Part shown: piece after piece, positions 1 to 28,563 of the stretch
Layout of the letters: each line of letters begins with the position of its first letter
How positions within the stretch are numbered: the first letter of the stretch is position 1
Source: Vulcanimicrobiota bacterium
GTDB taxonomy: Bacteria; Vulcanimicrobiota; Xenobia; Xenobiales; JADMJV01
Assembly: GCA_022842865.1 (NCBI GenBank)
Contig: JALHOV010000012.1
Span: 1 to 32,948 of the forward strand
Direction: 5' to 3'
DNA length: 32,948 nt
Notes under the pieces: model-generated
The model's input: the letters and a program-made list of their open reading frames with translations, nothing else
What the model was told of the DNA's origin: nothing
Database searches by the model: none
Translations under genes and position numbers: made by a program

Positions 1-3000
1 GCGATCGGCATAGTCTGCCACCACCAGGATAAATCGGCCCCGATGGTCTTCCATCTGCTTGAGCATGGTTTTGGCAGCGTCTGCTTTGAAGGCTTCTGGC
101 GCACGGGCCAAACCGCCGATCTCGTCAATGAAGCCGCCCTGGCCCCACATGCTTTCGAACAGCTTCTGCACCTTGGTGGTGGTTTGGCCGACAAAACCAG
201 CCTGCAGGTCCGCGCCCTGACTCTCGCTCAGGCCGTGGCTGGGGATAATGTCGTAGGCAGCCATGAGCTTGACGATCAAGCGTGCCATGGTGGTTTTGCC
301 GGTGCCAGGCGGGCCGTCCAGGATGAAATACGGCTCGAAGCTGGCCAACGGATCGTTGCCCATCTCTTTGTCATACTCGATCGAGTCACACAAGGTGCGC
401 AGCTCGGCTTTGAGATTGTCCAGACCCTCGAGGGCGTTGATTTCCTTCCATACCTGGTCGGGTGTCAAGGCTTTTTCGGCGGCGAAGTCGTCGGGGGCCA
501 GCGTCTGCAAGGCCGCTTTGGTCATTTCCGTTTGGCCCGAGGTGAGGCGGGTGGTCTGCTTCTTGATGGCGATGTCGATCATAGATCCCACGCTGCCGGC
601 GTTGCCAAAGTTCTTCATCTTGCGGCGTTCCCGCTCCAGGCGCATCAGAGCAGCCTCACGAGTCGGCTCATCCAGCAGGCGCTGCTTGTCGGCTACCATT
701 TTGTCGAGAATCGAGCCCAGTTCCTCACGATTGTAGTCCTCGAAGGGAACCGAGGTAAAGCGGCGTTCGGCTCCATCGTCCACGTCGCGAATCAAATCGC
801 GCATTTCGCCTTTGTAGCCGGCGCCGATGAAAACGGTGTCGGCATAATCGGGGTGACCCAGGTAAGGAATCATGGCCCGGAAAGCCAGCCGGCCTTCCTG
901 AGTATCCTTGAGCTGGTGCATCTCATCCACAAAGATGACGGCGCCTTTGTTTTGCTCGAACAGCTTCTTGACGTTTTCCTCGGGCTGACTGCCGGAGAGC
1001 AAGTCCTGCACGCGGATTTCCTTGAACTTGTTGTTTTTCAGATAACCGACTTTGGTCAGGGCGTCAGCAAACAGCTTGGCCACGGTGGTTTTACCGGTGC
1101 CCGGATTGCCTTCGAAAAGCAGGTTGAGGCGGGGCGGGTCGCCGGTCAGACCGTATTCGGCCTGAGCCTTCTGCAGCTTGACCTGGGCCAACACGCTGCG
1201 CAGCTCGCGCTTGGCGGCGCCCAGGCCGACCATGCGCTCGAGTTCGTCGAGCGGATCTTTTTCCTTGACCATCTTGGCGTTGATGACGTCGTTGGTGTTG
1301 ACGCGAGACACCGCCGAGGGATCGCGTTCAAGAAAGGGCATCAGCTTGGCGCTTCGTTCGGTCTGGGCGGACTTGACTCCGCGCCAGAGCGTGAAGGCCT
1401 GACCCACTTCGCCGTCCTTGGCTTTGGCACCGATGGCGCTGATGGCTTCCTGACTGAGATCATAACCTTCGGCCTGGGCCTTCTGAGCCAGCAAATTGGT
1501 GATCATGGGAGCGCTCAAGGGCTGCGTGTTGAAGCGCTTGTGGGTCACCGTGGGCAAAGCCGTCTTGAGGCGCTCCAGATCGGAGTTGGTCCCCTGCAGC
1601 AGCAGCGGCGACTGACCGCCGAAGCGCTCGATATACTTGCCCAGGGTGGCGAAACCGGGGCTGTTCAGCCCGATCTGGGCCAAGTCGTCGAGCACCAGGA
1701 AGGCGGCGCGGCCGCTCTGGACCTGCTCGTTGAGCACCTTCTCCAGCGCATCCGGGCTGTTGAAGGTGGCGGCGGGCAGACGGAGCACGCCTTCGCCTTC
1801 GCGCCAGCGGGGGACCCCGGGGTTGCGGGCATCACGCAGCGCTTCGCCGAGACGATCGACCAGTTCGCTGACATTGTGCTGGGGCTCGCCCTTGATTTCA
1901 AAGACGTAGGGAAGCGGCGGCAGTCCCTGGGCCTTCTGCACCCGGTTCAGTTCTTCGGCGGTGCGCAACTCCTCGAACGGATCGGGGTTGACGTTGACGA
2001 TAGGCTGAGTGGTCACCTGCAACTCGGCCAGCGCTTTGGCGTCCAGCTTGTGTTTGGTGTAATATCCCTTTTCCAGAGCGGCGAACGAAAGCGGAAACTG
2101 ACGCGCCATCCGGTCCGGATCGAGCTGGTAGCGAGTGAACATCTCGGCCCCGAAAAGGCTCTGGTCGGCCTGGAAGCGTCCCGGCAGGTTCGGTCCCTCG
2201 GCTTTGAAAGCGTCCGCCAGGCCTTTACTGGAGCCGCCGGTGTTCATCACCTTATCGTAGGCGTTGCCGATTTCGCGCATCATGGTATCGGGAGCAATGT
2301 GCAGACGGCCGCCCTTCCAGTGGGAGCGCAGCAGGATCCGTGGGTTTTGCCCCTGCTCCACGATATGGGCGCCTTCTTCCATGTCGGTCAGGTTGCCGCT
2401 TTTTTCCATTTTGCCCTCGAGCTTGGCGTGGGCGTTGGAGACGCGGTCACGGGTGACGGTGATGGAATACTTAAATTTATCCAGGTCTTGCAGAATGCCG
2501 GTGGGAAGGGTATTGAGACTGCGCTTGAGCAGGGCCATGTCGCGGTCGTCGGCCGGTTCGTCCAGCTTGACCAGCTTCTCGATGGCGGTCTGGCGAAGCT
2601 TCTTTTCCGCGTCGTCCTTGCCCGCGTAGAGGATGACTTCCGGTTCCGACTTGAAGAAGGTTTCGCCAAAAGCCAGGCTGGAGCGGGACTGAGCCGCCCA
2701 TTCTTTCCAGGATTCCTTGCCGAGCACGGTCTGACGTTCTTCGGCGGTGGCCTGGCGCAGCAGCGGGTGCTGTTCGATTTCGCCGTTAAAGCGCGCTTCG
2801 ATCTCGCTCCAGGAGTTGCTTAAGGTGGTGCTACCCAGGTCTTCCGGCTTGGGCACGCTGCCCCGGTCCATGGATTGGGACAGTTCCTGATCGATGCGCG
2901 TCTGCCAGTTGGCACTCACGTCGTCGAGCACGGATTTGCGCAAACTCTCCAGTTCGCCTTTGGTGGCCGCTTCAAAGGCCTTGGCGTCTGGCTCATGTCC

Positions 3001-5454
3001 GGCCGTCTTGCTCAGGAAGCCGGTCAGCACGGTGGCTACCGCTTCGTCGGTGCGGAACATGCTCGAACTCTCCAGTTGCTCGCGAGCGCCACCGCGAACC
3101 TCGGCGGGGGTAGACTCCTCGTCGCTGAGATGCTGCACGAAGGTGCGGGAAATATTGAGGCGCTCGGAGAGCTTCTCGGGAGACAGGCCGCTCAACACTT
3201 CGTGACCGAGTTTGGCCACGTCGGTCTCGCCGTTCTGAATGGCGGTCAGGGTGGCCTGAGCCAGCTTCAATCCGGTCGGCACGTCCTGCAGGTAACCGGC
3301 CAGAGGAGCCACCAGCTTGCTCACGGCCCGATCGCCGGCGATGTCGCTTTCCTTGGCAATACCCGAAAGATAGGTCATGGCCAGGCTGCGCTGGTCGGCC
3401 TCGCTGGTTTTGTCACCGGCAATGGTCGGCATCAGTTGCAGCGCCAGCGAAGCCAGGGCTTTGCCGGAAGTTTCCTCGCCGCCCTTGGAGAGCTTCTCGA
3501 GGGTGGCTTCGACCACTTTGACCCGGGCCGGAACCGACTTCTGCACGGCGCACAGCTCGGTGGCTACGCGGCACAGGGCTTGTTCTTTAGGATTGGTGGA
3601 CTGGTTCCCGATGGCGTTCAGGAAGAAGTTGCCGACGGCGGCTTTCTCTTCGGGAGTGGCTTTGGCCACCTGAGTCATGGCTTCTTTGCCCAGTTCACCC
3701 AGGGTGGCATCGAGCGGCTTGGTCAAACCCTTGGAAAGCAGATTGAGGGTGCACTGACCGATGGCCACGGCGGCGGCGGCCGGCAACTTGGCGGCGGCGT
3801 CTGCGCTCATGCGGCTGATCAGCTTCTCGGATTCACTCAAGCCGTGCTGGGCAATGCCAGCCAGGATCGCGCTGCTGACCGGGGCCTGATCTTTGGCGTC
3901 CACTTTGGTGTTCAGCACCAGTCCAGCCAGCACGACGCTGACGGGGGCCAGGATTCGCTTGCTCAGCATATCCAAACCGGCCTGAGCCAGCGCCAACTGC
4001 GTAGCCGGGGCGCGCTCGGCTGCGGCGCTGCTCACCACTTGAGAAAAGGCCTTTTCACCCGGGTTGGCCGAGGGCAGATCGGCCACCATTCCCAGGATGG
4101 CCTGGCCGACGGCGGCTTGCTCTTGGGGTTGAGCGCCTTTGGCCTGTTCCATGGCGGCCTGACCGAAAGTGGCGAACTCGCTGGCGCTCTTGGGGAGCTC
4201 CCCGGCCGACAACGACTGAAGGCCCGCCCGAGCCAGAGCGGCCTGAGCCGCGACCGGTAGCTTCTCTCCCGCGCCCAGCAGGTTTTGCACGAAAGCCTTT
4301 TCTTCGTCGCTGGTAAGCGTGGAATGGGAAAAAACGGTGAGGACGGCGTTTCCGAGGGCGGATTTTTCCTCGGGTTTAGCGGTGCCGATCAGGGCCAGCG
4401 CCTGGCCGCCAATCTGAGTCAGCGAGCGTCCGGTCAAACCGTTCGCCCCGCCCGCCATGAAAGCCAGAGAAGCCTGTCCAAGTGCAGCTTTGCAAACATC
4501 AGGCAGAGCTTTGCCGGCGTCCTGGATGGTCATGCAAAGCGACTTTTCGGTATCGCTGGTGAGGCTCGAAGCGTTCAGATGAGTCAGCAACGAGCTGGCC
4601 AAAGCCGCGCGATCGGCAGCCGGTGCGGCGTTGGTTAAATTCAGGGCCTTGGCGGCCACATCGGCCAGTTTTTGACCGGTCAATGCAGTGACTCCCGCGG
4701 CCACGGCTTCTAAGCCGGCCTGAGCCAACGCCGTCTGGGATGCGCCCGCCAGTCCCTTGCCGGCGCCGCTCAGGGCGGTCAGCAATCCTTTTTCGGCTTC
4801 GTTGGCGTTGGCCGAAGCGGTAATGGCCGCCAGGACCGAGGTTCCCAGGGCCGCCTGATCGGGAACGGCCTGACCCGGGACCAATCCCAAGGCGGCGGTG
4901 CCCCACCTGGCCAGAACCGGCCCGTTGACCCCGGTCAGCCCTTGAGAAATGGTCTGCAGGGTGGCTTGCGAGAGGGCGCCCTGAACCGAGGCGGAGAGCG
5001 ATTTACCGGCACCCAAGGACAGGTTGCTGACCGTCTTTTCGTCCTCGTTGCTGGTAGCCTGAGCAATCCCGGTCAGGAAACGCTCGCCTACTTTGGCGCG
5101 CTCCTCGGGCTGTAGCAGACCCGATTGTTGCATGACCTTGGTGGCCACGCCGGCCAGCACGCCGCCGGCAGTCCCCGTGAGCTGCTCGGTCAAAGCCTCG
5201 AGCGAAGTGCGATGCAATGCCAACTTGGCGGTGACGGAGCCGACCACGGCGGCCGATTGCTGGGCGACGTCGGCCAGATTCTTTTCCAGGGGATTCTTAC
5301 TATAACGGGGCAGTTCGGCGACAAATTTGTCAGCCATCTCGACCTGCTCTGACTCGGTCGGCAAGCCACCAGTCCAGCTGCTCTTGGTCATCTTTCTCAG
5401 CGTCTCGGCGGCGAGTTGCTGAGTCGTTTCAATTTTTGGTCCAAAGAGCGACAC
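1..5454 (-). CDS. Giant repeat / pseudo-metallopeptidase / tandem AAA+ ATPase protein (C-terminus cut by window edge)
   Basis: Reading the minus strand from a GTG at 5454 gives 1818 codons with no stop before the window ends. GGGGGA lies six bases upstream of the GTG. Residues 81 to about 815 form helical repeats of 82 residues. Residues about 1020-1125 look like a zinc-peptidase fold with a disabled site (REIGN at 1060-1064; FGAEMFTRY at 1101-1109). A degenerate AAA module follows, with a Walker B-like FLVLDDL near 1252-1258 but no P-loop. A complete AAA+ module has Walker A GNPGTGKT (1449-1456) and Walker B VIFVDE (1506-1511). The next has GPPGTGKT (1714-1721) and GGFIDE (1773-1778), then runs off the edge. 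The paired AAA modules resemble the SpoVK/CbbX/EccA family, which remodels protein complexes; that assignment is family knowledge. There is no signal peptide, so it is probably cytoplasmic. The substrate is unknown. Confidence 0.88.
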   Translation of the reverse strand, partial: MSLFGPKIETTQQLAAETLRKMTKSSWTGGLPTESEQVEMADKFVAELPRYSKNPLEKNLADVAQQSAAVVGSVTAKLALHRTSLEALTEQLTGTAGGVLAGVATKVMQQSGLLQPEERAKVGERFLTGIAQATSNEDEKTVSNLSLGAGKSLSASVQGALSQATLQTISQGLTGVNGPVLARWGTAALGLVPGQAVPDQAALGTSVLAAITASANANEAEKGLLTALSGAGKGLAGASQTALAQAGLEAVAAGVTALTGQKLADVAAKALNLTNAAPAADRAALASSLLTHLNASSLTSDTEKSLCMTIQDAGKALPDVCKAALGQASLAFMAGGANGLTGRSLTQIGGQALALIGTAKPEEKSALGNAVLTVFSHSTLTSDEEKAFVQNLLGAGEKLPVAAQAALARAGLQSLSAGELPKSASEFATFGQAAMEQAKGAQPQEQAAVGQAILGMVADLPSANPGEKAFSQVVSSAAAERAPATQLALAQAGLDMLSKRILAPVSVVLAGLVLNTKVDAKDQAPVSSAILAGIAQHGLSESEKLISRMSADAAAKLPAAAAVAIGQCTLNLLSKGLTKPLDATLGELGKEAMTQVAKATPEEKAAVGNFFLNAIGNQSTNPKEQALCRVATELCAVQKSVPARVKVVEATLEKLSKGGEETSGKALASLALQLMPTIAGDKTSEADQRSLAMTYLSGIAKESDIAGDRAVSKLVAPLAGYLQDVPTGLKLAQATLTAIQNGETDVAKLGHEVLSGLSPEKLSERLNISRTFVQHLSDEESTPAEVRGGAREQLESSSMFRTDEAVATVLTGFLSKTAGHEPDAKAFEAATKGELESLRKSVLDDVSANWQTRIDQELSQSMDRGSVPKPEDLGSTTLSNSWSEIEARFNGEIEQHPLLRQATAEERQTVLGKESWKEWAAQSRSSLAFGETFFKSEPEVILYAGKDDAEKKLRQTAIEKLVKLDEPADDRDMALLKRSLNTLPTGILQDLDKFKYSITVTRDRVSNAHAKLEGKMEKSGNLTDMEEGAHIVEQGQNPRILLRSHWKGGRLHIAPDTMMREIGNAYDKVMNTGGSSKGLADAFKAEGPNLPGRFQADQSLFGAEMFTRYQLDPDRMARQFPLSFAALEKGYYTKHKLDAKALAELQVTTQPIVNVNPDPFEELRTAEELNRVQKAQGLPPLPYVFEIKGEPQHNVSELVDRLGEALRDARNPGVPRWREGEGVLRLPAATFNSPDALEKVLNEQVQSGRAAFLVLDDLAQIGLNSPGFATLGKYIERFGGQSPLLLQGTNSDLERLKTALPTVTHKRFNTQPLSAPMITNLLAQKAQAEGYDLSQEAISAIGAKAKDGEVGQAFTLWRGVKSAQTERSAKLMPFLERDPSAVSRVNTNDVINAKMVKEKDPLDELERMVGLGAAKRELRSVLAQVKLQKAQAEYGLTGDPPRLNLLFEGNPGTGKTTVAKLFADALTKVGYLKNNKFKEIRVQDLLSGSQPEENVKKLFEQNKGAVIFVDEMHQLKDTQEGRLAFRAMIPYLGHPDYADTVFIGAGYKGEMRDLIRDVDDGAERRFTSVPFEDYNREELGSILDKMVADKQRLLDEPTREAALMRLERERRKMKNFGNAGSVGSMIDIAIKKQTTRLTSGQTEMTKAALQTLAPDDFAAEKALTPDQVWKEINALEGLDNLKAELRTLCDSIEYDKEMGNDPLASFEPYFILDGPPGTGKTTMARLIVKLMAAYDIIPSHGLSESQGADLQAGFVGQTTTKVQKLFESMWGQGGFIDEIGGLARAPEAFKADAAKTMLKQMEDHRGRFILVVADYADR
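3259..5214 (-). repeat. Eight 82-residue helical repeats within the giant AAA+ protein
   Basis: A short helix signature of the form QAxL (for example QATLQ, QAGLE, QASLA, RAGLQ, QAGLD, QCTLN, EATLE, QATLT) recurs at residues 163, 245, 327, 409, 491, 567, 649 and 733, with a weaker copy (HRTSL) at 81. The spacings are 82, 82, 82, 82, 76, 82 and 84 residues. Inside each unit a conserved EKAALG-like segment lies about 37 residues after the signature, and an acidic xEK segment about 57 residues after it. The units are rich in alanine and leucine, which suggests an alpha-solenoid scaffold. I know of no named repeat family that matches. Confidence 0.85.
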
Positions 5455-10373: not shown

Positions 10374-12674
10374 TTAGTCTTTGACCAGGTGGCGTTCCAG
10401 CCATTGCTCCATCTCCCAGAGGCAGTGAAGCACCGACTCGCGGGCGCGGTAGCCGTGATCCTCGAGCGGCAGCACGCACAAACGCGCTCGCGCCCCCAGA
10501 CCCTTGAGGGCCTGGTAAAAACGCTCGCTTTGCAGGGGGAAGGTGCCCGAGTTGGAGTCTTCGGCGCCGTGGATGAGCAGCACCGCGTCCTGGATCTGAT
10601 CGGCCACGTGAAAGGGTGACATGGCCTGGTAGGTCTCGCGCGCCTGCCAATAAATGCGCTCCTCCGACTGGAATCCAAAGGGGGTAAGCGTCCGATTGTA
10701 AGCGCCGCTTCGACAAATAGCCGCCTTAAAGAGCCGGCTGTGAGCCAGGAGATTTGCGGCCGTGAAGGCTCCGTAACTATGCCCGCCAATGGCCATGCGC
10801 GAACGATCCCCCACGCCACGGCGCACCAACTCGTCGATGGCCGCCCCCGCGCTGTCCAGCAACTGCTTCACGTAGGTGTCGTTGGGCTCTTCCTCGCCCT
10901 CCCCCACCACCGGAAAGCTCGGGTCGTCCAGCACCGCATAACCCAGCAGAGCGAAAAACAACGGCCCGCCCCAGGATGGGTGAATGTAGCGGAAGGGACT
11001 GTCGCGCAACTGCCCGGCACGCGCGGCGCTTTTGTACTCGCTGGGATAGGCCCAGAGGAGACCGGGCAGAGCCGAGCCATCGTGGTCGGGGGGCAAATAC
11101 AAAGTACCGGTCAACTCGACGCCATCGCTGCGCTGATAGCGAATCAGCTCCTTGCCCACCCGCGTCAGCATGGGCACGGCCGGCTCGATCTGGGTTAACT
11201 CGCGAGCCTGGTTGTCATGCCACAACACCAGATTGGGCGGGCGCATCTGACTCTCGCGCTGAATCAAAAGGCACCTGGCTTCCGAATCCAGGAGCCCGAC
11301 CGGATAATCATAAAAAGGCGCCTCACTTTGAAAAAGACGCTGGCTGGTTTTCGAAATCAGGTCGAAACGGTCCAAAAACGGTCGCTCTCCCTGAGCCGAA
11401 GCCCCCGCACCCACCAGATAAATGCTCTGCCCACTGCGAATCAGACGCTGCCGGCCCTGGTCATCCAGCTGAATGAGCGGACGACCCGGATTGATGTAAT
11501 CGTCCTCGCTCGAATATTCGAAGAGCAATTCGCGCTGGCCACTGCCGGGAAAGACGCGCCAGACGCGACGGTTGCGCGTCTTCCACCAGCCTTCTTGCAC
11601 AATGGCCAGATCGTCGTCGCCAAAAGTCAGCGACTCGATTCGGCCCGCCACTTCCAGAAAAACGCGGGGCTCCTCCCCCACGGCTTTCTGCATCAAGGCA
11701 TCGCGAACTTCGGCCTGCTGACGTGGATCGCCGCCGTCGCGGGCTTCCAGCCAGATGACCGTGCAGGCCTCATCCTCGCGCCAACAAGCATACCGGCGAC
11801 CGGGACGCACCGCGTCAAAATCAGGCGGAGTGCTTTCTTGCAAGGCAAGCTCGGAAACCACCTCGATCTCCTGGCCGGAAAAGTCCATGATGGCGGTGCG
11901 TAGAGGAAAGCGACCCATCGGCACCTGATAGGAAAACGGCCGCAAAATTTCCGAATACAAAATGTAACGACCGTCCGGGGAAATGGTGAAGCCTGAAAAT
12001 AATTTTCCAGCCAGCACCACCTGCGACTGACCCTCCAGGTCGATCGAAACCATGTCACTGGCCAGGTAATGGACAAAAAGAGCTTCATCATGCTCATTTT
12101 TGAGCAAGTCCTGAAAAGTGCGGCTGGGTGACCGGCCGCCCGAATGCTCCTGCACAATCGGTGAGCCGGGAACCGCCGGAGCGGTCGGGGCCGGGCCCTG
12201 GTCGGCCGGCACCAGCTGGGCCAGCAGACCGCTGGAATCGCGCAGCCAGCGAAAATTGACCGTTCCATTCACCTGATTCAGCCGCCCGGCCAGACGCCGG
12301 GCCTGAGCGGTGGCCACCTCGGCCAGCCAGAGTTCGTCGTTGTGACTGAAGGCCAGATACCTTCCGTCGGGAGACCAGTTCAGGGTGCGGATGCGCGGAG
12401 CTTCCGGCATTCCCTCGATGGCGCGAATCTGCCCCTGCAGATCCTGAAAAGAAAGCGCATCATAGTAGAGATCGCGGTTACACAAGCGCCATTCCGGGTG
12501 AAAGCGCAGTCCGGCCAGGCGCATTTCCGGCTGGGAAAGATCGATCAACTCCAGCAGCACCTTATATTCGGTCAGCACCCAGTGATTGCGCTGAGGAGAG
12601 AGCACGAAAGAGCGACGGCGACTGGCCTCGACCGCCTGGGCCAGCAACGGTGAAGGGGTTTGATAGCCACTCAT
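10374..12674 (-). CDS. S9 family peptidase, glutamyl endopeptidase-like (S9D)
   Basis: The 766-residue protein has an N-terminal beta-propeller (WD-like segments such as IRTLNWSPDGRYLAFSHNDE) and a C-terminal alpha/beta-hydrolase domain. The catalytic triad is visible: Ser633 in GGHSYGAF, Asp706 in HGAEDSNSG and His740 in LEDHGYRARES. The stretch RSGAYNRTLTPFGFQSEERIYW matches, from memory, the signature region of the chloroplast glutamyl endopeptidase subfamily, which cleaves after Glu in peptides. No signal peptide is present, so it should act in the cytoplasm on short peptides. ATG at 12674 overlaps the TGA of the upstream aspartokinase gene (ATGA), so the pair is translationally coupled. 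The frame extends to 12758, but that part is inside the upstream gene and is rejected as the start. Confidence 0.92.
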   Translation of the reverse strand: MSGYQTPSPLLAQAVEASRRRSFVLSPQRNHWVLTEYKVLLELIDLSQPEMRLAGLRFHPEWRLCNRDLYYDALSFQDLQGQIRAIEGMPEAPRIRTLNWSPDGRYLAFSHNDELWLAEVATAQARRLAGRLNQVNGTVNFRWLRDSSGLLAQLVPADQGPAPTAPAVPGSPIVQEHSGGRSPSRTFQDLLKNEHDEALFVHYLASDMVSIDLEGQSQVVLAGKLFSGFTISPDGRYILYSEILRPFSYQVPMGRFPLRTAIMDFSGQEIEVVSELALQESTPPDFDAVRPGRRYACWREDEACTVIWLEARDGGDPRQQAEVRDALMQKAVGEEPRVFLEVAGRIESLTFGDDDLAIVQEGWWKTRNRRVWRVFPGSGQRELLFEYSSEDDYINPGRPLIQLDDQGRQRLIRSGQSIYLVGAGASAQGERPFLDRFDLISKTSQRLFQSEAPFYDYPVGLLDSEARCLLIQRESQMRPPNLVLWHDNQARELTQIEPAVPMLTRVGKELIRYQRSDGVELTGTLYLPPDHDGSALPGLLWAYPSEYKSAARAGQLRDSPFRYIHPSWGGPLFFALLGYAVLDDPSFPVVGEGEEEPNDTYVKQLLDSAGAAIDELVRRGVGDRSRMAIGGHSYGAFTAANLLAHSRLFKAAICRSGAYNRTLTPFGFQSEERIYWQARETYQAMSPFHVADQIQDAVLLIHGAEDSNSGTFPLQSERFYQALKGLGARARLCVLPLEDHGYRARESVLHCLWEMEQWLERHLVKD

Positions 12675-15259
12675 AAGGTGGGCAGACAGAGCACTTCGCG
12701 GCTCCAGGCGTGGGCCGAGATGGCTTGCTTGACCTGTTCGATCTGGCCCCAGCTGCAAGGCTGCAAGGCCAGCACGATGTGGGCCAGACCATCCGGATCA
12801 GAAATCTGGGTGGCCTCGCGGATCGACAACCCCAGTTGGGCCAGGGCTGTGGCCACCGCGGCAAAAACCCCTGGTTGATCCGTAACGCTGCAGCGCAGAT
12901 ACCAACCCTGCACCACCGAACGCCAGTCGCGCAGAGCGGCCGGCTGCAGCGGCGGCAAAGCGGTCATTTGGCGCAGCTGGGTCAGATCGCGCACCACCGA
13001 TCGGGCCGTGGGCAGAGGCCCGGCCCCCTTCCCCACCATGGTGAATGGCTCGTCGCGACCTGCCAGTTGCAGGGCCACCGCATTGGTCTCCTGACGCACC
13101 GAAGCCAGCGGATGCTCCAGCGGCACCAGCGCCGGACTGGTCCATAGCTCCAATCCGTCGGCGCTGCGCCGGCAACAAGAAAGCGGCCGAATGGCGCAGT
13201 GAAAACGCTGAGCGCTGGCAAAATCAACGGGCAGCAACTCTTCCAGACCCTGACGGCGGATTTCTCCCCAGGGAACCCAGCAATGGAAGATCAGGCTGCT
13301 CAACAGAGCCAGCTTCTGACTGGCGTCAGCGCCCGAGACGTCAAAATAAGGGTCGGCTTCGGCGAACCCGGCCCGCTGCGCGGCGGCTAAAACCTCGTCA
13401 TAGGGCTGGCCGGCCGCCATATGGGTCAACAGGTAATTGCTGGTACCGTTGGCGATGGCCAGCACGCCCTGCACGTCCTGATTGCTGGGCATATGCCGGA
13501 CCACGTCGAGCACCGGGATTTCGCCGCACACACTGGCCTCGAAGGCCAGAATGCGAGCATGCTTGCGGGCCGCGGCAAAAAGCTCCAAACCGTGCTCGGC
13601 CAGTACCGCTTTGTTGGCCGTGACCACGTGCTTGCCCTTACTCAAGGCCTGTAAAATCAGCGTGCGCGCCGGCTCCAGGCCGCCCATCAACTCTAAGACC
13701 ACGTCCACGCGCGGGTCGTCCACCACCAGCTGGGGATCGGTGACCAGTAGACCGGAAAAGTTCTCGCGTTTCTTGTCGACGTCGCGCACCGCCGCGATGG
13801 GAAAACGCCAACGACTGCGGGCTTTAGCCGAATCGTGCAGGTGGCTCTGGTAGTAAAGAACGCCGCTGCCCACTGTGCCCAGTCCCAACATGCCGCAATA
13901 CAGCTCGTGTCGGCAGAACAACTGACGGTACAACTGCAGGAGCAAAGCCTGGAAGTGGCGCTTGCGCACCACGATTTCAAAGGTGCTGTCGGTCAAAAGC
14001 TGCGGACTCTTGTGGACCGGCGGTACCACTTCGCCCTCGGCCCGCGGCAGCCACTCGATCGACTGATGAATGGCAGCCAGAATGTCGTGGTTCTCGCCGA
14101 TGGCGTCCCCGACCACCTTCAAGAGCACCTGGTCCTTAGAAAGATGGCTGTCGGGAAACTCTTTCTCGAGTTGTTGCACTTCCGCGGTGCATTGATCAAA
14201 CACAAAACTGGCGCGGCCGCTGGAGTAACTGGCCATGAGCAGGCGCACACCGGGCAACTCCTCGACCATGCGCCAGAGGGGACGATAGTCGTCCTCCCGA
14301 TCCAGGTAAACGGTGAGCACCGGCACCCCCTCCAGGGCGGTAATTCCTTTGGGAACGCCGGCCGGCGAGCGATGGCCCTGCAGCACCGTGCCCGGATGCT
14401 CTGGATTGAAGGTGTTTTTCACGGTCAGGCGCAGATGCCGCCCCTTGCGCGAGGCCATGGTGGCGGCCGCCAGGCACTTCTGATACAGCACCTTGCTGCC
14501 GAAAGCGGCCATCTGATAGGCCTCCTCGTGGGACAACTGGGGAATGGTATGAGGATGGCCCTCTTCGCGAAAAGGCTTGGGCAAGAAGTTCGGATTGGTG
14601 GTGGCTACGCCGTCCACGTCCGTAAAGATCTCCACCTCGCGCTTGAGAGCAGCTCCTACCACGGCGGCCGTGTAGTCCGAACCGCCGCGCCCCAGCGTGG
14701 TCGGTCGGCCGTCAGCGGTCACCCCCACGTAACCAGGAACCACCGGCAAGCCGCGCAACTGAAAGATCTTCTGAGCCATCGGCTCCAGCGAACTTTCCAA
14801 GATCGATGCGTCCTGAAACCGATCGTCACTCACCAGACCCAGCTCCTGCGGCGAGAGATCCTGGGCGTCCCAGCCCCGCGAACGCAGTGCGGCCGCCATC
14901 ATACGAGCCGACAGGCGCTCGCCCCAACCCATCACCCGATCCAACTTTTCTTCCAGGGGCAGCTCGGTTTTCAGATGAGCCAGCAGTTGCTCCCATAAAT
15001 CCGCCAGCAGGTCAGTGGCCAGCCCCAGGGACTCCAGCAAGGCCTCGTGAATTTCCTGAAGGGGTCCGAGTTTGGGCTCTTTCACCAGAGCCTGCAACAA
15101 ATCGGTGACCTTGGCCCGGTTTTTGGTCGACCCCACCGCCGACACCACTACCACCGGGTTCAGGGCACGTTTGGACTCGATAATATCCAGTACTTTCCCC
15201 CAGGATTCGGGAGTGGCCAGGCTGGTGCCGCCAAATTTGAGGACGATCTTCGGTCGCAT
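12671..15259 (-). CDS. thrA: Bifunctional aspartokinase / homoserine dehydrogenase
   Basis: The 862-residue enzyme catalyses the first and third steps from aspartate to homoserine, feeding threonine and methionine. Aspartokinase motifs: KFGGTS (8-13) and GRGGSDYTA with FTDVDGV. ACT regulatory domains lie between the two halves. Homoserine dehydrogenase starts near 455 with the NAD(P) loop GLGTVGSGV (459-467), followed by LMGGLEPA, TANKAVLA, GEIPVL, GTSNYLLTHM and EADPYFDVSGADASQK. Unlike E. coli ThrA, it carries a further ACT-like domain at the C-terminus (784-862, CSVTDQPGVFAAVATAL), as in many monofunctional Hom proteins. ATG at 15259 has GGAG about seven bases upstream. The open frame continues to 15919 but there runs antisense through the GH43 gene. 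Threonine feedback is likely from the ACT domains (family knowledge). Confidence 0.95.
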   Translation of the reverse strand: MRPKIVLKFGGTSLATPESWGKVLDIIESKRALNPVVVVSAVGSTKNRAKVTDLLQALVKEPKLGPLQEIHEALLESLGLATDLLADLWEQLLAHLKTELPLEEKLDRVMGWGERLSARMMAAALRSRGWDAQDLSPQELGLVSDDRFQDASILESSLEPMAQKIFQLRGLPVVPGYVGVTADGRPTTLGRGGSDYTAAVVGAALKREVEIFTDVDGVATTNPNFLPKPFREEGHPHTIPQLSHEEAYQMAAFGSKVLYQKCLAAATMASRKGRHLRLTVKNTFNPEHPGTVLQGHRSPAGVPKGITALEGVPVLTVYLDREDDYRPLWRMVEELPGVRLLMASYSSGRASFVFDQCTAEVQQLEKEFPDSHLSKDQVLLKVVGDAIGENHDILAAIHQSIEWLPRAEGEVVPPVHKSPQLLTDSTFEIVVRKRHFQALLLQLYRQLFCRHELYCGMLGLGTVGSGVLYYQSHLHDSAKARSRWRFPIAAVRDVDKKRENFSGLLVTDPQLVVDDPRVDVVLELMGGLEPARTLILQALSKGKHVVTANKAVLAEHGLELFAAARKHARILAFEASVCGEIPVLDVVRHMPSNQDVQGVLAIANGTSNYLLTHMAAGQPYDEVLAAAQRAGFAEADPYFDVSGADASQKLALLSSLIFHCWVPWGEIRRQGLEELLPVDFASAQRFHCAIRPLSCCRRSADGLELWTSPALVPLEHPLASVRQETNAVALQLAGRDEPFTMVGKGAGPLPTARSVVRDLTQLRQMTALPPLQPAALRDWRSVVQGWYLRCSVTDQPGVFAAVATALAQLGLSIREATQISDPDGLAHIVLALQPCSWGQIEQVKQAISAHAWSREVLCLPTL

Positions 15260-15349
15260 GGCCCGCTCCGTTCGATTTACCAGGCAGCGATGCCTTGCGG
15301 TTAACACCACGGAAACCTGAGAACGACCCGCGCCGCATAGAGTCAGGGG

Positions 15350-16282
15350 ATGATGATTCTCCCTTATACGGCGCCGCCGGCCACCTACAACAACCCGGTA
15401 ATCCGCCATGATGCGCCAGATCCGGGCGTCCTGAAGACGGAGAACGACTATTTTATGGTCACCACCGGTGGTAACCATCAGGAAGGCGCCTTCCCCATCT
15501 ATCGCTCCGAAGATCTGGTGAACTGGGAGCCCAGCGGCACAATTTTTGCCAAACGCCAGGCCCCGGGCTGGAGCAGCGGCGATTTCTGGGCGCCCGAAAT
15601 TCATCCGGTGGGCGATCAGTTCATCGCCTACTTCACGGCCCGCGACCGTTCGGGAATGTTGCGCATCGGCGCGGCCACCTCCCCCAAAGTGGAAGGCCCC
15701 TACCAGGACATCGGCCAGCCGCTGGTGGCCGAACCCCACATCGGAGTCATCGATCCAACCTTCTTTCGCGATGACGACGGCAGCCAATACCTCTATTGGA
15801 AAGAAGATGGCAACGCCTTCAACCCCCCGCAGCCCACCCGCATCATGGGCCAGAAGCTGGAAAAAGACGGCGTGACTCGCTCGGGCGAGCCGGTGGAGGT
15901 GCTGCGCAACGATCCCCAATCTTGGGAAGGCGACATTGTGGAAGCGCCTGAGATGGTCAAACGCGGAGACTACTATTACCTACTTTACTCAGGCAACGGC
16001 TACTGGGGCGAAGACTACGCCGAAGGCGCCGCCCGCGCCAAATCGCCGCTCGGTCCTTTCGAAAAGGCGGGCAAGCCCTTCCTGACCAGCACCGAGCGCT
16101 GGGAAGGCCCGGGCCACGCACACATCACGCAAGATGGCAAGGGCCAAGATTGGCTGGTTTACCACGCCTGGGACGAGGAGCACAAAGGTCGCCAGGTGCT
16201 CATCGACCCCTTGACCTGGGGACCCGACGGCTGGCCGCACATGCAAGGTCCTTCCCTGGGAGGGGCTGCTCCATCGAAATAG
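15350..16282 (+). CDS. Glycoside hydrolase family 43 protein
   Basis: The 310-residue protein has the five-bladed propeller signature of GH43. The catalytic base is Asp24 in DAPDPGV, the pKa modulator is Asp135 in VIDPTFF and the acid is Glu198 in VEAPEM. FWAPEIH at 79-85 is also typical. The family removes arabinose or xylose units from plant polysaccharides and oligosaccharides. No signal peptide is visible, so it probably acts on imported oligosaccharides. Two adjacent ATGs (15350 and 15353) follow AGGGG; the second has the better spacing. No sugar transporter or other glycosidase lies nearby, which is unusual because GH43 genes often sit in utilisation clusters. The exact substrate cannot be predicted. 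Confidence 0.9.
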   Translation: MMILPYTAPPATYNNPVIRHDAPDPGVLKTENDYFMVTTGGNHQEGAFPIYRSEDLVNWEPSGTIFAKRQAPGWSSGDFWAPEIHPVGDQFIAYFTARDRSGMLRIGAATSPKVEGPYQDIGQPLVAEPHIGVIDPTFFRDDDGSQYLYWKEDGNAFNPPQPTRIMGQKLEKDGVTRSGEPVEVLRNDPQSWEGDIVEAPEMVKRGDYYYLLYSGNGYWGEDYAEGAARAKSPLGPFEKAGKPFLTSTERWEGPGHAHITQDGKGQDWLVYHAWDEEHKGRQVLIDPLTWGPDGWPHMQGPSLGGAAPSK

Positions 16283-24245: not shown

Positions 24246-25130
24246 GTGAAATCTACTCGTTGGGTCCCAATGCTTTTGCTGGTAGCCTTGATCGGCCCGG
24301 TGCAATCCGCTCCCGACAAGAACCACATTTATCTGGTGGTCGCCCAGTCCGGAAAGTGCACCGTTGCCGGCAAACCCATTTCCCTCTTGAGCTACCTGTC
24401 GATCCAAGACACCGTCTCCTGCCCTCCCAACGGGTCGCTGACCGTGACCAACGTGTTAACCGGCGCACGCTATCAGATTTCCGGCCAGACGGCTCTGGCC
24501 AAAGAGCTGGTCCCGAACCACAAGACCATCAAGACCGTCCGCCAGAGTCAAGAGCAGCGACAAGGCATCGAAGTCAGCCATCAGGTGGACATGAGCAAAT
24601 ACGGCGGTTACACCAGTCGCTCCCTCGGAGTCAAAGCCGATGCCCCCATCCCCGTCTCCCTCGAAAAGCTCCCGGTCGTGCTCGACCTGACCCTCAGCAA
24701 ACACAAATTGGACGGGCCGAACCCGATGATTCGCTACCGCAAAGTGAATGATCACGGCTATCCGGAATATGTACGCGCGGTGGTTTCCCCCGACGGCAAC
24801 CGACTGACGCTACCCGACTTGAAGATCCCGCCCGATCAGACGACCATGATCTTTTTTGGTGACCCGGAAAAGACGGATGGGCGGGAGGTCTCCGACGGTC
24901 AGGCATCCTTCGCGGTCACCGTGATCAACCCGAAATTGGAAAAGAAACTGCGCACCGTGCGCAAGATGGCTGATAAAGCCTCCGAGCTGGAAGCCTATGA
25001 GGCCTACTGCCAGCTAGAAGTCTACTGGCCCGCCCGCCAACTCCGGGACTCTCTGCTCAAGCAGTATCCAGAAGCCAGGGGAGAAATCGGAGAACTCTTC
25101 AAGAAGTGGATTGAGCCGGTGCCGAAATGA
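24246..25130 (+). CDS. Exported protein with FecR-like N-terminal domain
   Basis: The 294-residue product starts at GTG 24246 and has a Sec signal peptide (about 1-21, VPMLLLVALIGPVQSA). The following 60 residues (YLVVAQSGKCTVAGKPISLL, then GSLTVTNVLTGARYQISG) follow the small beta-barrel pattern of FecR-like domains: a GxV-like strand, a threshold-like turn and a closing strand. A middle beta-rich region and a C-terminal helical segment (KMADKASELEAYEAYCQLE) complete it. The FecR call is by eye and moderate at best. ATG of the caspase gene overlaps its stop (ATGA), so the two are translationally coupled and both are exported. Confidence 0.75.
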   Translation: MKSTRWVPMLLLVALIGPVQSAPDKNHIYLVVAQSGKCTVAGKPISLLSYLSIQDTVSCPPNGSLTVTNVLTGARYQISGQTALAKELVPNHKTIKTVRQSQEQRQGIEVSHQVDMSKYGGYTSRSLGVKADAPIPVSLEKLPVVLDLTLSKHKLDGPNPMIRYRKVNDHGYPEYVRAVVSPDGNRLTLPDLKIPPDQTTMIFFGDPEKTDGREVSDGQASFAVTVINPKLEKKLRTVRKMADKASELEAYEAYCQLEVYWPARQLRDSLLKQYPEARGEIGELFKKWIEPVPK

Positions 25131-26947
25131 AGGCGGCTCTCTCTTTGGCCGCAGCCCTGGCCTTGAGTGCACCCGCCCTGGCCGAGGGACAAACCTGGGC
25201 GGTCGTGGTTGGCATTGATAACTACACCAAGGAAGGCATCCCCGCTTTGCACTATGCGGGAGCCGACGCCAAGATCTTCGCCCAGGCGCTGCAGACGCTA
25301 CTGAAGGTCCCCAAAGATCACCTCTACTTGTTCACCAGCGACTCGGTCGAGTCGGGACAATCCCCCTCCCGCCTCAATCTCGTCTACCGCCTCGACTGGT
25401 TGAGCAAGAACGCCAAGGCCGACGATATAGTGATATTTTACTTTGCCGGCCACGGAGCCCAGGTCGAAGGCTCCTCTTTCCTGTTGACCGACGATGCCGA
25501 CCCTCGCAGTTTGGAAACGCTCAAGGCCTCGGCGCTCAACACCGCTGACCTGAACCGGTTGATCGACCGCACCGCGGCGGCCAAGACCCTGACGGTGCTG
25601 GACGCCTGTCGCAACAATCCCAGTGGAGGGCGCGACGAATATAGCGTGGCCGCCCAGTTCGCCCTGACCGGCAAAGGCAAAGAGGTGGTCGGTCTGGTCA
25701 GTTGCAGTCCCGGCCAACGTTCTTGGGAATGGGAAGACAAGAAGCACGGATTCTTTACCTATTTTTTGGTGGAAGCGATGCAGGGCAAAAGCGGCGGGAT
25801 CAAGGGGAACATCACCCCGGCATCGCTGGCGGAATTTCTCGACACCCAGGTTCCTACCCAGACCCTCTCGGTGGTTCGCCAGAAGCAAAACCCCCGACTC
25901 TTTTACGATGGCCCCTCCAGTAGCGGCTGGGTGCTCGGCAAAGCACCCGCCTCCGGCACACCCATCAAAGACTTGGAAGGGCTGGCCGCCAAAGCCGAGC
26001 TACTCACGGCCGAGAAGGTCGAGCTGGAAGCCAGGCTGCGCTCCGAGGAGGCCCGTCGACGCCAGGCCGAGCTACGTCTAGAAGCTGCCGAAAGAAAAGC
26101 CGGCGCGGTGGGAATTCAGCCCTCCGACCAAGTGCAAAAGCTTGCGCTGGCCCGCGACCTGGCCATGAAAGAACTGCTGGAAACCAAAAAAGAACTGGAA
26201 ACCTTGCGCGTGCAGTTGGCGGCCCGAGGCGGTCCCACCGCCGAAACCGAGCTGATGCTGGCTGAGCGCGAACAGCTCCGTGCCGAGAACAAAGTCTTGC
26301 TGGCAAAAATTGTGGTTCTGGAAGGTCGCTTGCAAGACGGCAAGGTGACCTCCATGGCGCGCAGTTTCACGCTGGAAGACCAGGGTCCGCTATCAGCCCG
26401 GGTCACAGAATTGGAACGCCTGGCCAGCACCCAGCCCAGCGACGAAAACCGGAAGCGAGCTGCCGAAGCCCAGGTGGTAAGGGAGCTGGATCACTCCGCG
26501 CAATATCGCCACGAGCTGGACCGTCTAACCACCAAGTTTTTTCAAGAAGTCGTCCAGAAATCCGAGCAGCGCTTCGCTAACCAGTTGGAGATGTCTCTGG
26601 AGCAGCAAGCGGAAATCGACACTCTCAAGCTGCAGTTGGCGTTAAGTGACAATCGGGCCGAGCAGGCCAAACTGGGCAAGCGTCTGGCCCAGAATCAGCT
26701 AGAGAGCGTGAATGACGCCAGCACTCCCGTCCTGGAGGCGGCCCGCGAGAATGACGAAAAGGCATTACAGCGAGCCCAAGCGGAAAATCGTCGCCTGCTG
26801 GCAAGCCTGCAAGACATGATCAAGTTCGAACCTGCCCGCCGGCGCTTCATCTCCAGGCGTTTCCGCGAGATCAATTCGATGCCGGGCATGGGCGACATCC
26901 TGGACATTCCGGTCAAGACCGGTCCCGAGCTACAAACCCTACCTTAA
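25127..26947 (+). CDS. Exported caspase-family (C14) cysteine protease with C-terminal coiled coil
   Basis: The 606-residue protein has a Sec signal peptide (MKAALSLAAALALSAPALA, cleavage near residue 19). The caspase-like domain (about 21-255) starts with TWAVVVGIDNY. The catalytic dyad is visible: His109 in YFAGHGAQ and Cys161 in VLDACRNNP. Residues about 282-570 are a nearly continuous coiled coil (for example AELLTAEKVELEARLRSEEA). Bacterial caspase homologues (metacaspase-like, orthocaspase) usually cleave after basic residues; I cannot predict the specificity here. The signal peptide places it outside the cytoplasm, unusual for proteins linked to cell death. Its TAA overlaps the TAA of the convergent tpsB gene by the bases TTA/TAA at 26944-26947. 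Confidence 0.92.
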   Translation: MKAALSLAAALALSAPALAEGQTWAVVVGIDNYTKEGIPALHYAGADAKIFAQALQTLLKVPKDHLYLFTSDSVESGQSPSRLNLVYRLDWLSKNAKADDIVIFYFAGHGAQVEGSSFLLTDDADPRSLETLKASALNTADLNRLIDRTAAAKTLTVLDACRNNPSGGRDEYSVAAQFALTGKGKEVVGLVSCSPGQRSWEWEDKKHGFFTYFLVEAMQGKSGGIKGNITPASLAEFLDTQVPTQTLSVVRQKQNPRLFYDGPSSSGWVLGKAPASGTPIKDLEGLAAKAELLTAEKVELEARLRSEEARRRQAELRLEAAERKAGAVGIQPSDQVQKLALARDLAMKELLETKKELETLRVQLAARGGPTAETELMLAEREQLRAENKVLLAKIVVLEGRLQDGKVTSMARSFTLEDQGPLSARVTELERLASTQPSDENRKRAAEAQVVRELDHSAQYRHELDRLTTKFFQEVVQKSEQRFANQLEMSLEQQAEIDTLKLQLALSDNRAEQAKLGKRLAQNQLESVNDASTPVLEAARENDEKALQRAQAENRRLLASLQDMIKFEPARRRFISRRFREINSMPGMGDILDIPVKTGPELQTLP

Positions 26948-28509
26948 AAGCGTGTCTGCAGGCCGGCGTAGAGAGCAGGACTGCGCCCCGTGCTGGACGG
27001 CGTGGGAGAAATCGGAAACCCCAGATCGAGACGCAGCGTGGCGTGTTGCTGAAGGCCAAAGCGGAAGCCGAAACCGGCCCCGGTCAGGTGCGAGCCCAGG
27101 GGTAGATCGCCGGGCAAGGCCCTGCGCAGACTGACCCCGCCGTGGTCGATAAAGGCGGTCACCTGAAAAGCGTCCAGGTCTTCCTCGAAAGGAGACCAGC
27201 GCAATTCGGCTCCCAGCACGTAGGCGTTGTCCCCCAGCAATTGAGCTTGAGGATAACCGCGCACGGTGTCAGGACCACCCACCGCGAATTGTTCAGCTAC
27301 GTATAGCGGTTGAGTGGCGTATTGGCCGCTGGCGCGGAGGAGCGCGTAAAGGCCGGTATCCAGGTTCTGAATGCGCGCCAGATCCAGATTGAACTTGGCG
27401 AATCCCCCGCTGGCCCCCACCCGACTGACCAACGGGTCGCTGGCGGGAGTACCGCCCAGGCCCTGGGTGTAGGCGGCCTGGAGCAGGGTGCGCCCCTGGA
27501 TGGAGCGCCAATCGGCCTGATAAGTCAGCCTGGCGCTATTGTATTCATCCCGTGAAAATGGCTGCAACCCTCCGAAGAAATTGTTGCGGATAAACTTGTG
27601 CGAGGCGGCCAGGCCGAGATTGCTGGAGAACTCTAACTGGCGCTCCAAGGGATGGCTGACGGCCACCGTATAGATGTCGGCGTTGCCGCGCACGTCCAAA
27701 ATCGCGCCCAATCCCTCAGACACAGCGAAGGCGCCGTTGGCGTAGCCGAAATTCAGGGTGGTGCCATCCTGATTCAGGGGCATTTGATAATTGATCTGGT
27801 AAAAGCTGTTCTCCCGGGACGGAAAGCCGAGCACGCCGCGCAAACTGATTTGGTCCGCCTGTTGCAGCACATTGCCCGCGTCAAAGGTCAGGCCGACGCG
27901 GTGCTCCCCGGTGGCCGAAGTTCCGTAGTTGTTGTAATCCACCCCGCCATGCACCGGCGTGGCATCTTCCACTCGCAGGGTGACATCGGTCTGACCGACC
28001 TCAGAACCGGGCGCCATGACCGCCTTGACCTGCAAATCCGGCAACTCATTCATTAAGAGCATGGCCCGCTGAAAGCGGTCATTACGGAAGGTTTCCCCAT
28101 CGAAGCTGCGCTGAAAGCGCTCGCGAATGAATTCCGGGTCGTAATGTTCGGCGCCCTCCACCGTGACTTTGCCGACTTTGCCTTCGACCACTCGCAGCTC
28201 GACCTGGCCGTCCTGAATCGACTGCTGAGGAAGGTAGGCCCGCACCAGGAAATAGCCATTGCGCTGATAGAGGGCGGTGAGGTTGCGAGCCACTTCGCGC
28301 AGTTGGGCCAGAGTCAGGGCCTGACCCTGATAAGACTGATAGACCTTGTCCAGCTCCTCAGGAGCCAGCAGCGTATTCCCGGTGACCAGGAATTTGGAAA
28401 CGACCACCGTCTTTTCTGTGGCTTCCGTTGTGACGGGCTGGTCGGGCAGTGGCTGCGCCCAGGCGCCCAGAGAACAGCCCAAGCAAAACCCGATCAGGTG
28501 CATTCGCAT
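26944..28509 (-). CDS. ShlB/FhaC/HecB family two-partner secretion outer-membrane transporter (TpsB)
   Basis: From ATG 28509 the product is 521 residues. A signal peptide (MRMHLIGFCLGCSLGAWA) is followed by two POTRA domains (about 30-105 beginning VVVSKFLVTGNTLL, and about 106-180 containing GKVTVEGAEHYDP). A 16-strand-type beta barrel comes next, with Val-Arg-Gly-Tyr at 416-419 in the conserved loop-6 motif, and the chain ends in a terminal Phe (LQTRF), as in outer-membrane proteins. TpsB proteins export large beta-helical TpsA partners through the outer membrane. The partner is the divergent gene at 28564. ATG 28503 and the upstream ATG 28581 are alternative starts; the chosen one places the signal peptide at the N-terminus. 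Confidence 0.93.
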   Translation of the reverse strand: MRMHLIGFCLGCSLGAWAQPLPDQPVTTEATEKTVVVSKFLVTGNTLLAPEELDKVYQSYQGQALTLAQLREVARNLTALYQRNGYFLVRAYLPQQSIQDGQVELRVVEGKVGKVTVEGAEHYDPEFIRERFQRSFDGETFRNDRFQRAMLLMNELPDLQVKAVMAPGSEVGQTDVTLRVEDATPVHGGVDYNNYGTSATGEHRVGLTFDAGNVLQQADQISLRGVLGFPSRENSFYQINYQMPLNQDGTTLNFGYANGAFAVSEGLGAILDVRGNADIYTVAVSHPLERQLEFSSNLGLAASHKFIRNNFFGGLQPFSRDEYNSARLTYQADWRSIQGRTLLQAAYTQGLGGTPASDPLVSRVGASGGFAKFNLDLARIQNLDTGLYALLRASGQYATQPLYVAEQFAVGGPDTVRGYPQAQLLGDNAYVLGAELRWSPFEEDLDAFQVTAFIDHGGVSLRRALPGDLPLGSHLTGAGFGFRFGLQQHATLRLDLGFPISPTPSSTGRSPALYAGLQTRF

Positions 28510-28563
28510 TCGCCCGGTTACTCGAGAAAAATGAGAAAACCTGCCCAGCGAGAAGAGACGCCC
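28510..28563. other. Divergent spacer between tpsB and tpsA
   Basis: Only 54 bases separate the two start codons. I see no good -35/-10 pair within it. Either one promoter lies inside the other gene's 5' end or a shared regulator-controlled promoter is used. GAGAAGAG before the tpsA ATG is a weak ribosome binding site. Confidence 0.5.

Follow-up and report, generated by a model that had tools for sequence, protein, structure and literature searches.

Gene structure and domain order

What kind of protein is encoded by the very long open frame that runs off the beginning of an Eremiobacterota contig, and what might it do in the cell? The window analysed here is a stretch of 32,948 nucleotides at the start of contig C12, which belongs to an 8.0 Mb metagenome-assembled genome (MAG) of 809 contigs. 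An earlier note on this DNA placed the frame at positions 1 to 5454 and read it as a single giant protein joining helical repeats, a dead-looking zinc-peptidase domain and three AAA+ modules. That placement is correct, the gene (gene A) lying on the minus strand, and the order of parts was borne out: solenoid, zincin-like domain, degenerate AAA1, AAA2, AAA3 and tail. The features, in window coordinates, are as follows.

1..5454, minus strand: gene A, GTG start at 5454, 1,818 codons, 3' end cut by the contig edge
2947..5355, minus strand: alpha-solenoid, residues 34-836, built of 82-residue four-helix repeats, nine of them clear and one weak (AlphaFold2, repeat HMM)
2668..2934, minus strand: linker, residues 841-929, with W, D and P columns conserved across paralogues; helical character assumed
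2020..2622, minus strand: zincin-like pseudo-peptidase domain, residues about 945-1145, lethal-factor/PPEP fold (Foldseek, Pfam ATLF, profile alignment)
2257..2277, minus strand: REIGNAY replacing HExxH, residues 1060-1066, both histidines absent in 11/11 members
1300..1917, minus strand: AAA1, residues about 1180-1385, degenerate, KGEPQHN replacing Walker A, Walker B-like FLVLDDL
475..1257, minus strand: AAA2, residues 1400-1660, Walker A GNPGTGKT, Walker B VIFVDE, AAA_lid_6, pore loop deleted
1..453, minus strand: AAA3, residues 1668-1818 (cut), Walker A GPPGTGKT, Walker B FIDE, FVG pore loop

ORF analysis of the window found the frame open down to base 1, without a stop. Its start is likely the GTG at 5454, which is immediately preceded by a ribosome-binding-like stretch (GGGGGA) and aligns with the ATG starts (MSLFGPKIE, MAIFGPKIE) of three relatives. 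From the aligned start each of these relatives has one uninterrupted ORF, of 2,097 residues in G003 (89% identity to gene A), 2,087 in G001 (78%) and 2,105 in G002 (67%); by comparison with them the complete gene A product would be about 2,100 residues long. The same single ORF in three other assemblies, each from a different species, rules out an assembly artefact and upholds the single frame of more than 1800 codons reported earlier. The relatives are also MAGs and the gene set comes from one genus, hence the sequence sample is small.

The missing C-terminus, which the earlier note hoped to retrieve from an adjoining contig, opens contig C40, also of this assembly. The first 489 bases of C40, in frame 1, continue the sequence of the relatives and end in FEYHCPYCGGINSPTCAYIGQSLDWKIQHSLKKPW plus the tail, leaving a gap of about 124 residues between C12 and C40. 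The tail carries a zinc-ribbon-like CxxC...C motif and has no significant match in Pfam.

Elsewhere in the window lie an aspartokinase fused to a homoserine dehydrogenase and ending in an ACT domain (12671-15919, minus strand), the open frame of which starts well upstream of the likely start; a caspase-domain (C14) protein (25127-26947) with, by eye, a signal-like N-terminus and a long coiled-coil-like tail; and a two-partner secretion pair (26947-32948). The pair consists of a ShlB/FhaC-type transporter on the minus strand and, on the plus strand, a TPS-domain protein that continues past the window end.

The solenoid

AlphaFold2 models the N-terminal part of the protein as an all-helical superhelix (mean pLDDT 82.6) with a four-helix period of about 82 residues, its helix starts falling at residues 34, 116, 197, 279, 361, 443, 520, 601, 684 and 762. 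In leave-one-out HMM tests repeat units 1-9 score 18-67 bits, against at most 10 for shuffled sequences (100 shuffles each), while unit 10 fails (2.2 bits against 4.5); the mean pairwise identity between units is 23%. The tests and the four helices per modelled unit together confirm the 82-residue repeat that had been read from the letters. The repeat is without a match in Pfam or PDB, and a comparison of the solenoid with PDB folds returned nothing at E <= 0.001. An HMM trained on the units of A detects ten units in A itself, four in its paralogue B, five to seven in C and one in D.

The solenoid had been presented as a part of this one protein. It is not confined there: the 82-residue repeat recurs in a few other Eremiobacterota genomes, in proteins without an AAA module (L058, L085, L086, L087, L091, L088). 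By eye, several of these AAA-free proteins seem to have a membrane hairpin and share a conserved VxIGGxxIxKR tail, and one resembles an M13-type peptidase.

A zincin-like domain without its zinc site

For the zincin part of the predicted model, the top Foldseek matches are PPEP-1 and PPEP-2 (E about 1e-3, TM 0.59-0.66 on the target), and lethal factor is also matched. Pfam ATLF is matched by 1/10 members only (E 1.6e-4). In a single hhalign comparison, the domain aligns with an intact standalone HELGH (HELGHAL) protein of the same genome (E 2.3e-5). These three lines of evidence back the zincin-like assignment of the earlier note.

The HExxH site itself is absent in 11/11 family members. At its position the family reads REIGxAY (RQIANAY once); further downstream it retains a glutamate that falls in the third-ligand region of the alignment. 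Set against the ATLF/PPEP zinc peptidases, the family has the fold and lacks the zinc site, and the domain is dead-looking, as the earlier note had judged it. As both histidines are missing in every member, loss of the active site predates the split of the paralogues. Among A orthologues dN/dS over this segment is 0.09-0.16, which indicates that the dead domain has been maintained.

A congener encodes a protein (L051:5325-8774, on G001:C18) in which three tandem units of about 180 residues precede a pair of AAA modules from the same clade. By eye the L051 units resemble matrixin-type zincins without HExxH, a reading for which Pfam and PDB sequence searches gave no support; related tandem units without AAA modules occur in L104-L109. 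Separately, an FtsH homologue, an intact lethal-factor-fold peptidase and other proteins near the loci have in common N-terminal low-complexity stretches with a DSVxLG/DSVxLS-like motif (L016:15302-17089 on the minus strand, L061 and L050:3502-4449), possibly a sorting tag.

The AAA modules and their clade

AAA2 and AAA3 match Pfam AAA and have intact Walker A and B motifs, invariant in all members. AAA1 has no match in Pfam; we regard it as a degenerate AAA module because of its Walker B-like strand and its alignment to AAA3 (hhalign E 2.9e-5), despite the lack of a Walker A motif. There are thus three AAA modules, as first described, the first of them degenerate. Confidence in the predicted structure is low over the zincin-AAA half (mean pLDDT 54.8), where only the zincin part and AAA2 gave usable fold matches.

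The top PDB matches are CbbX for AAA2 (profile E 4e-30; Foldseek E 1e-4) and an EccA1 chain for AAA3. AAA2 also contains AAA_lid_6 (43.8 bits against a cut-off of 24.3), a library resemblance that stands outside the three residue features taken from PMC10659427 as signatures of the SpoVK/CbbX/EccA clade. In sensor 1 the conserved tyrosine of the GY signature is present: AAA2 has AGY in all copies and AAA3 has ADY, which keeps the tyrosine and loses the glycine. The asparagine before the arginine finger is replaced by aspartate in every aligned copy (DDGAERR in AAA2, DPGISRR or similar in AAA3). The sensor-2 arginine (GNAR) is lost, AAA2 reading GNAG and AAA3 SSGD or SGGD; GNAG is also present in one annotated EccA reference. 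Given the last two changes, ATP turnover could be slow or absent. A bihelical hairpin ahead of Walker A, which the clade has in common with FtsH, would lie in a stretch that is modelled here with low confidence.

None of the NCBIfam equivalog cut-offs is reached (SpoVK TIGR02881, 190/423 bits; EccA TIGR03922, 171/467; CbbX TIGR02880, 141/459). The AAA tree puts AAA2 and AAA3 on separate branches, both very long and with full support, and gives them no firm position among SpoVK, CbbX and EccA. On account of these long branches and the deviations from the signatures, we treat the family as a derivative of the SpoVK/CbbX/EccA clade and file it under no single member. That CbbX is the top PDB match to AAA2 might suggest a RuBisCO activase of the CbbX type; the CbbX score is far below its cut-off, and the RuBisCO large subunit is found in 0/5 congeneric genomes, which rules this function out and leaves it next to no credibility.

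The earlier view that members of this clade usually have TPRs or nothing in front proved too narrow. N-terminal fusions to beta-helix, beta-prism and RNA-helicase domains have been published for the clade (PMC10659427), and a 1,111-residue Streptomyces protein, encoded near eccC, combines a beta-helix with two AAA modules.

Operon, paralogues and selection

Gene A is the first of two or three paralogues that form an operon with overlapping genes. On C40 gene B begins before gene A has ended (ATCGTGATTAAT), the two sharing 8 bases, and in the window genome gene C begins at the last base of the B stop (AATAGTG, one-base overlap). The 8-base overlap of A and B is found in 3/4 species (G001 and G003 being the others), while G002 has a 36-base gap; G002 additionally has C plus a separate single gene, D. 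The full lengths are 1,566 residues for B, 1,713 for C (window genome) and 1,540 for D.

Within one genome, A and B are most alike in AAA3 (91% identity), and the figure falls along the protein to 82% in AAA2, 62% in AAA1, 57% in the zincin-like domain and 26% in the solenoid. Over AAA3 the two genes differ with dN 0.066 at dS 0.99, synonymous sites being near saturation throughout (dS 0.8-1.7), so that selection, rather than recent copying, has kept the two alike. Among A orthologues dN/dS is 0.02-0.16 for the zincin-like and AAA segments, with AAA3 lowest (0.02-0.06), and 0.11-0.33 for the solenoid. All segments, dead domains included, are under purifying selection.

Instead of a motor, the AAA modules could be slow switches or assembly platforms of an ATP-regulated scaffold, which would hold a complex together without threading; a module without Walker A (AAA1), another without a pore loop (AAA2) and the lost sensor-2 arginines all favour this, and both the length of the solenoid and the dead state of the peptidase fold would suit it. 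Against a scaffold speak the invariant Walker A and B motifs of AAA2 and AAA3, the FVG pore loop kept in AAA3 and the especially low dN/dS of that module. We consider it somewhat unlikely.

Distribution

A profile of the zincin-like domain, searched against 149 genomes of the phylum, found 11 copies, all of them in congeneric genomes (4/5); the remaining 144 genomes had none. In all 11 copies the domain is fused to AAA modules; the finding that could have undone the earlier reading, the parts encoded as separate genes in close relatives, was not made in any relative found. A scan of GTDB contigs with the gene A protein, which reaches close relatives only, returned the same genus alone, and outside the genus there are relatives of the AAA part only. 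As far as seen, the family is restricted to one Eremiobacterota genus. In G004, the search for an empty site met a flanking gene as a fragment at a contig end.

The combination is absent from the family libraries and the literature searched. No model of Pfam, NCBIfam, PHROG or PADLOC spans it and the library cut-offs rule out a known named family, in keeping with the claim that no such fusion had been described. A viral or phage origin was also rejected: one scan of IMG/VR viral contigs found no relative of the zincin-like domain, and phage and plasmid matches cover only the AAA part.

Patchiness within the genus (4/5), expansion into paralogues and a fast-changing solenoid are what a conflict or phage-defence machine might show. 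The PADLOC matches, however, are to generic AAA over about 60-200 residues, and in several species the locus is syntenic beside housekeeping genes, with no defence neighbours seen; we therefore hold a defence role to be very improbable.

That the family might serve a type VII-like secretion system, as an EccA-like helper, would accord with the EccA profile match over AAA2 and the EccA1 match over AAA3, with the finding of AAA_lid_6 in A, B and C alone among the proteins of the window genome, and with a full-length EccC-like protein, having FHA/kinase and VWA neighbours, in that genome and three congeners. However, the EccA score is low (171 bits against 467), no EccC match reaches the EccC cut-off and the loci are unlinked. 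The idea is weakened further by discordant distributions: G001 has A and B and no full-length EccC match, whereas G004 has EccC and no family member. Such a role is decidedly unlikely.

The EccC-like protein is about 1,400 residues long (L121:7385-11587 and L122, on G003:C12 and G000:C347), its profile match is full-length and below cut-off, and its neighbours look like VWA, PP2C-type and FHA/kinase proteins, a possible type VII-like system in Eremiobacterota.

Possible function

Like the earlier note, we infer a large remodelling or scaffolding machine. Characterised members of the clade are dedicated chaperones, whose variable N-terminal domains act on dedicated clients (PMC10659427). By analogy, the reading we prefer, to which we give an even chance, is that of a dedicated giant AAA+ remodelling chaperone with solenoid and pseudo-zincin as its arm, A, B and C co-assembling or sharing a partner. 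The proteins would be cytosolic. AAA2 and AAA3 would probably form an ATP-driven motor ring, in which AAA3 would supply the sole recognisable substrate-gripping pore loop and AAA1 may serve as a structural tier, itself dead; selecting and presenting a dedicated client might fall to the solenoid together with the dead zincin fold. A, B and C probably co-assemble, or else may serve one shared partner with different clients, and selective retention of AAA3 is expected if they share an assembly or partner while their arms diverged. Neither co-assembly nor the arm can be obligatory, since D, present in one genome, stands alone and has hardly any solenoid. No client gene linked to the locus was found.

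A bolder version, which we think unlikely, is a three-tier hetero-oligomeric AAA+ unfoldase in which the dead peptidase fold would bind a peptide in its former cleft and hand it over to the motor. Were it true, the L051 repeats without HExxH, a second and unrelated set, would have arrived at the same principle independently. The published survey of the clade reports no association with peptidase domains and proposes that its members assemble and activate clients rather than feeding a protease (PMC10659427). Here a peptidase fold is present in a clade protein, its active site lost, the loss fixed before the paralogues split, and the domain under purifying selection, so that the idea of AAA+ machines using pseudo-peptidases as client receptors can be put to the test.

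Comparison with known systems

Of the known systems, CbbX (PDB 3syk, 3syl, 3zuh), the red-type RuBisCO activase, shares the AAA core and lid of AAA2, but has about 310 residues, one AAA module and neither solenoid nor zincin fold. SpoVK of Bacillus and Clostridia, which is sporulation-specific (PMC10659427), is the top NCBIfam match to the family protein (residues 1426-1680, E 3e-56); it differs in having about 320 residues and a single AAA module, and the family protein stays well short of its cut-off. EccA-like ATPases of type VII secretion systems, and Streptomyces WP_072489024.1 with its beta-helix and two AAA modules near eccC, likewise place two clade AAA modules behind a repeat domain. 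In these, however, the repeat is a beta-helix or TPR, the GY and NPG boxes are kept, and neither a zincin fold nor a degenerate AAA1 is recognised.

The zincin-like domain shares its fold with PPEP-1, PPEP-2 and the ATLF domain of lethal factor, from which the family differs by the loss of both zinc histidines. AAA+ proteins of the FtsH family reside in membranes and have a C-terminal peptidase domain of their own. Among them the plant FtsHi pseudo-proteases are reported to retain a zinc-peptidase domain without an active site (PMC8197885). The present family, by contrast, joins an N-terminal fold of the lethal-factor/PPEP type to AAA modules of a different clade.
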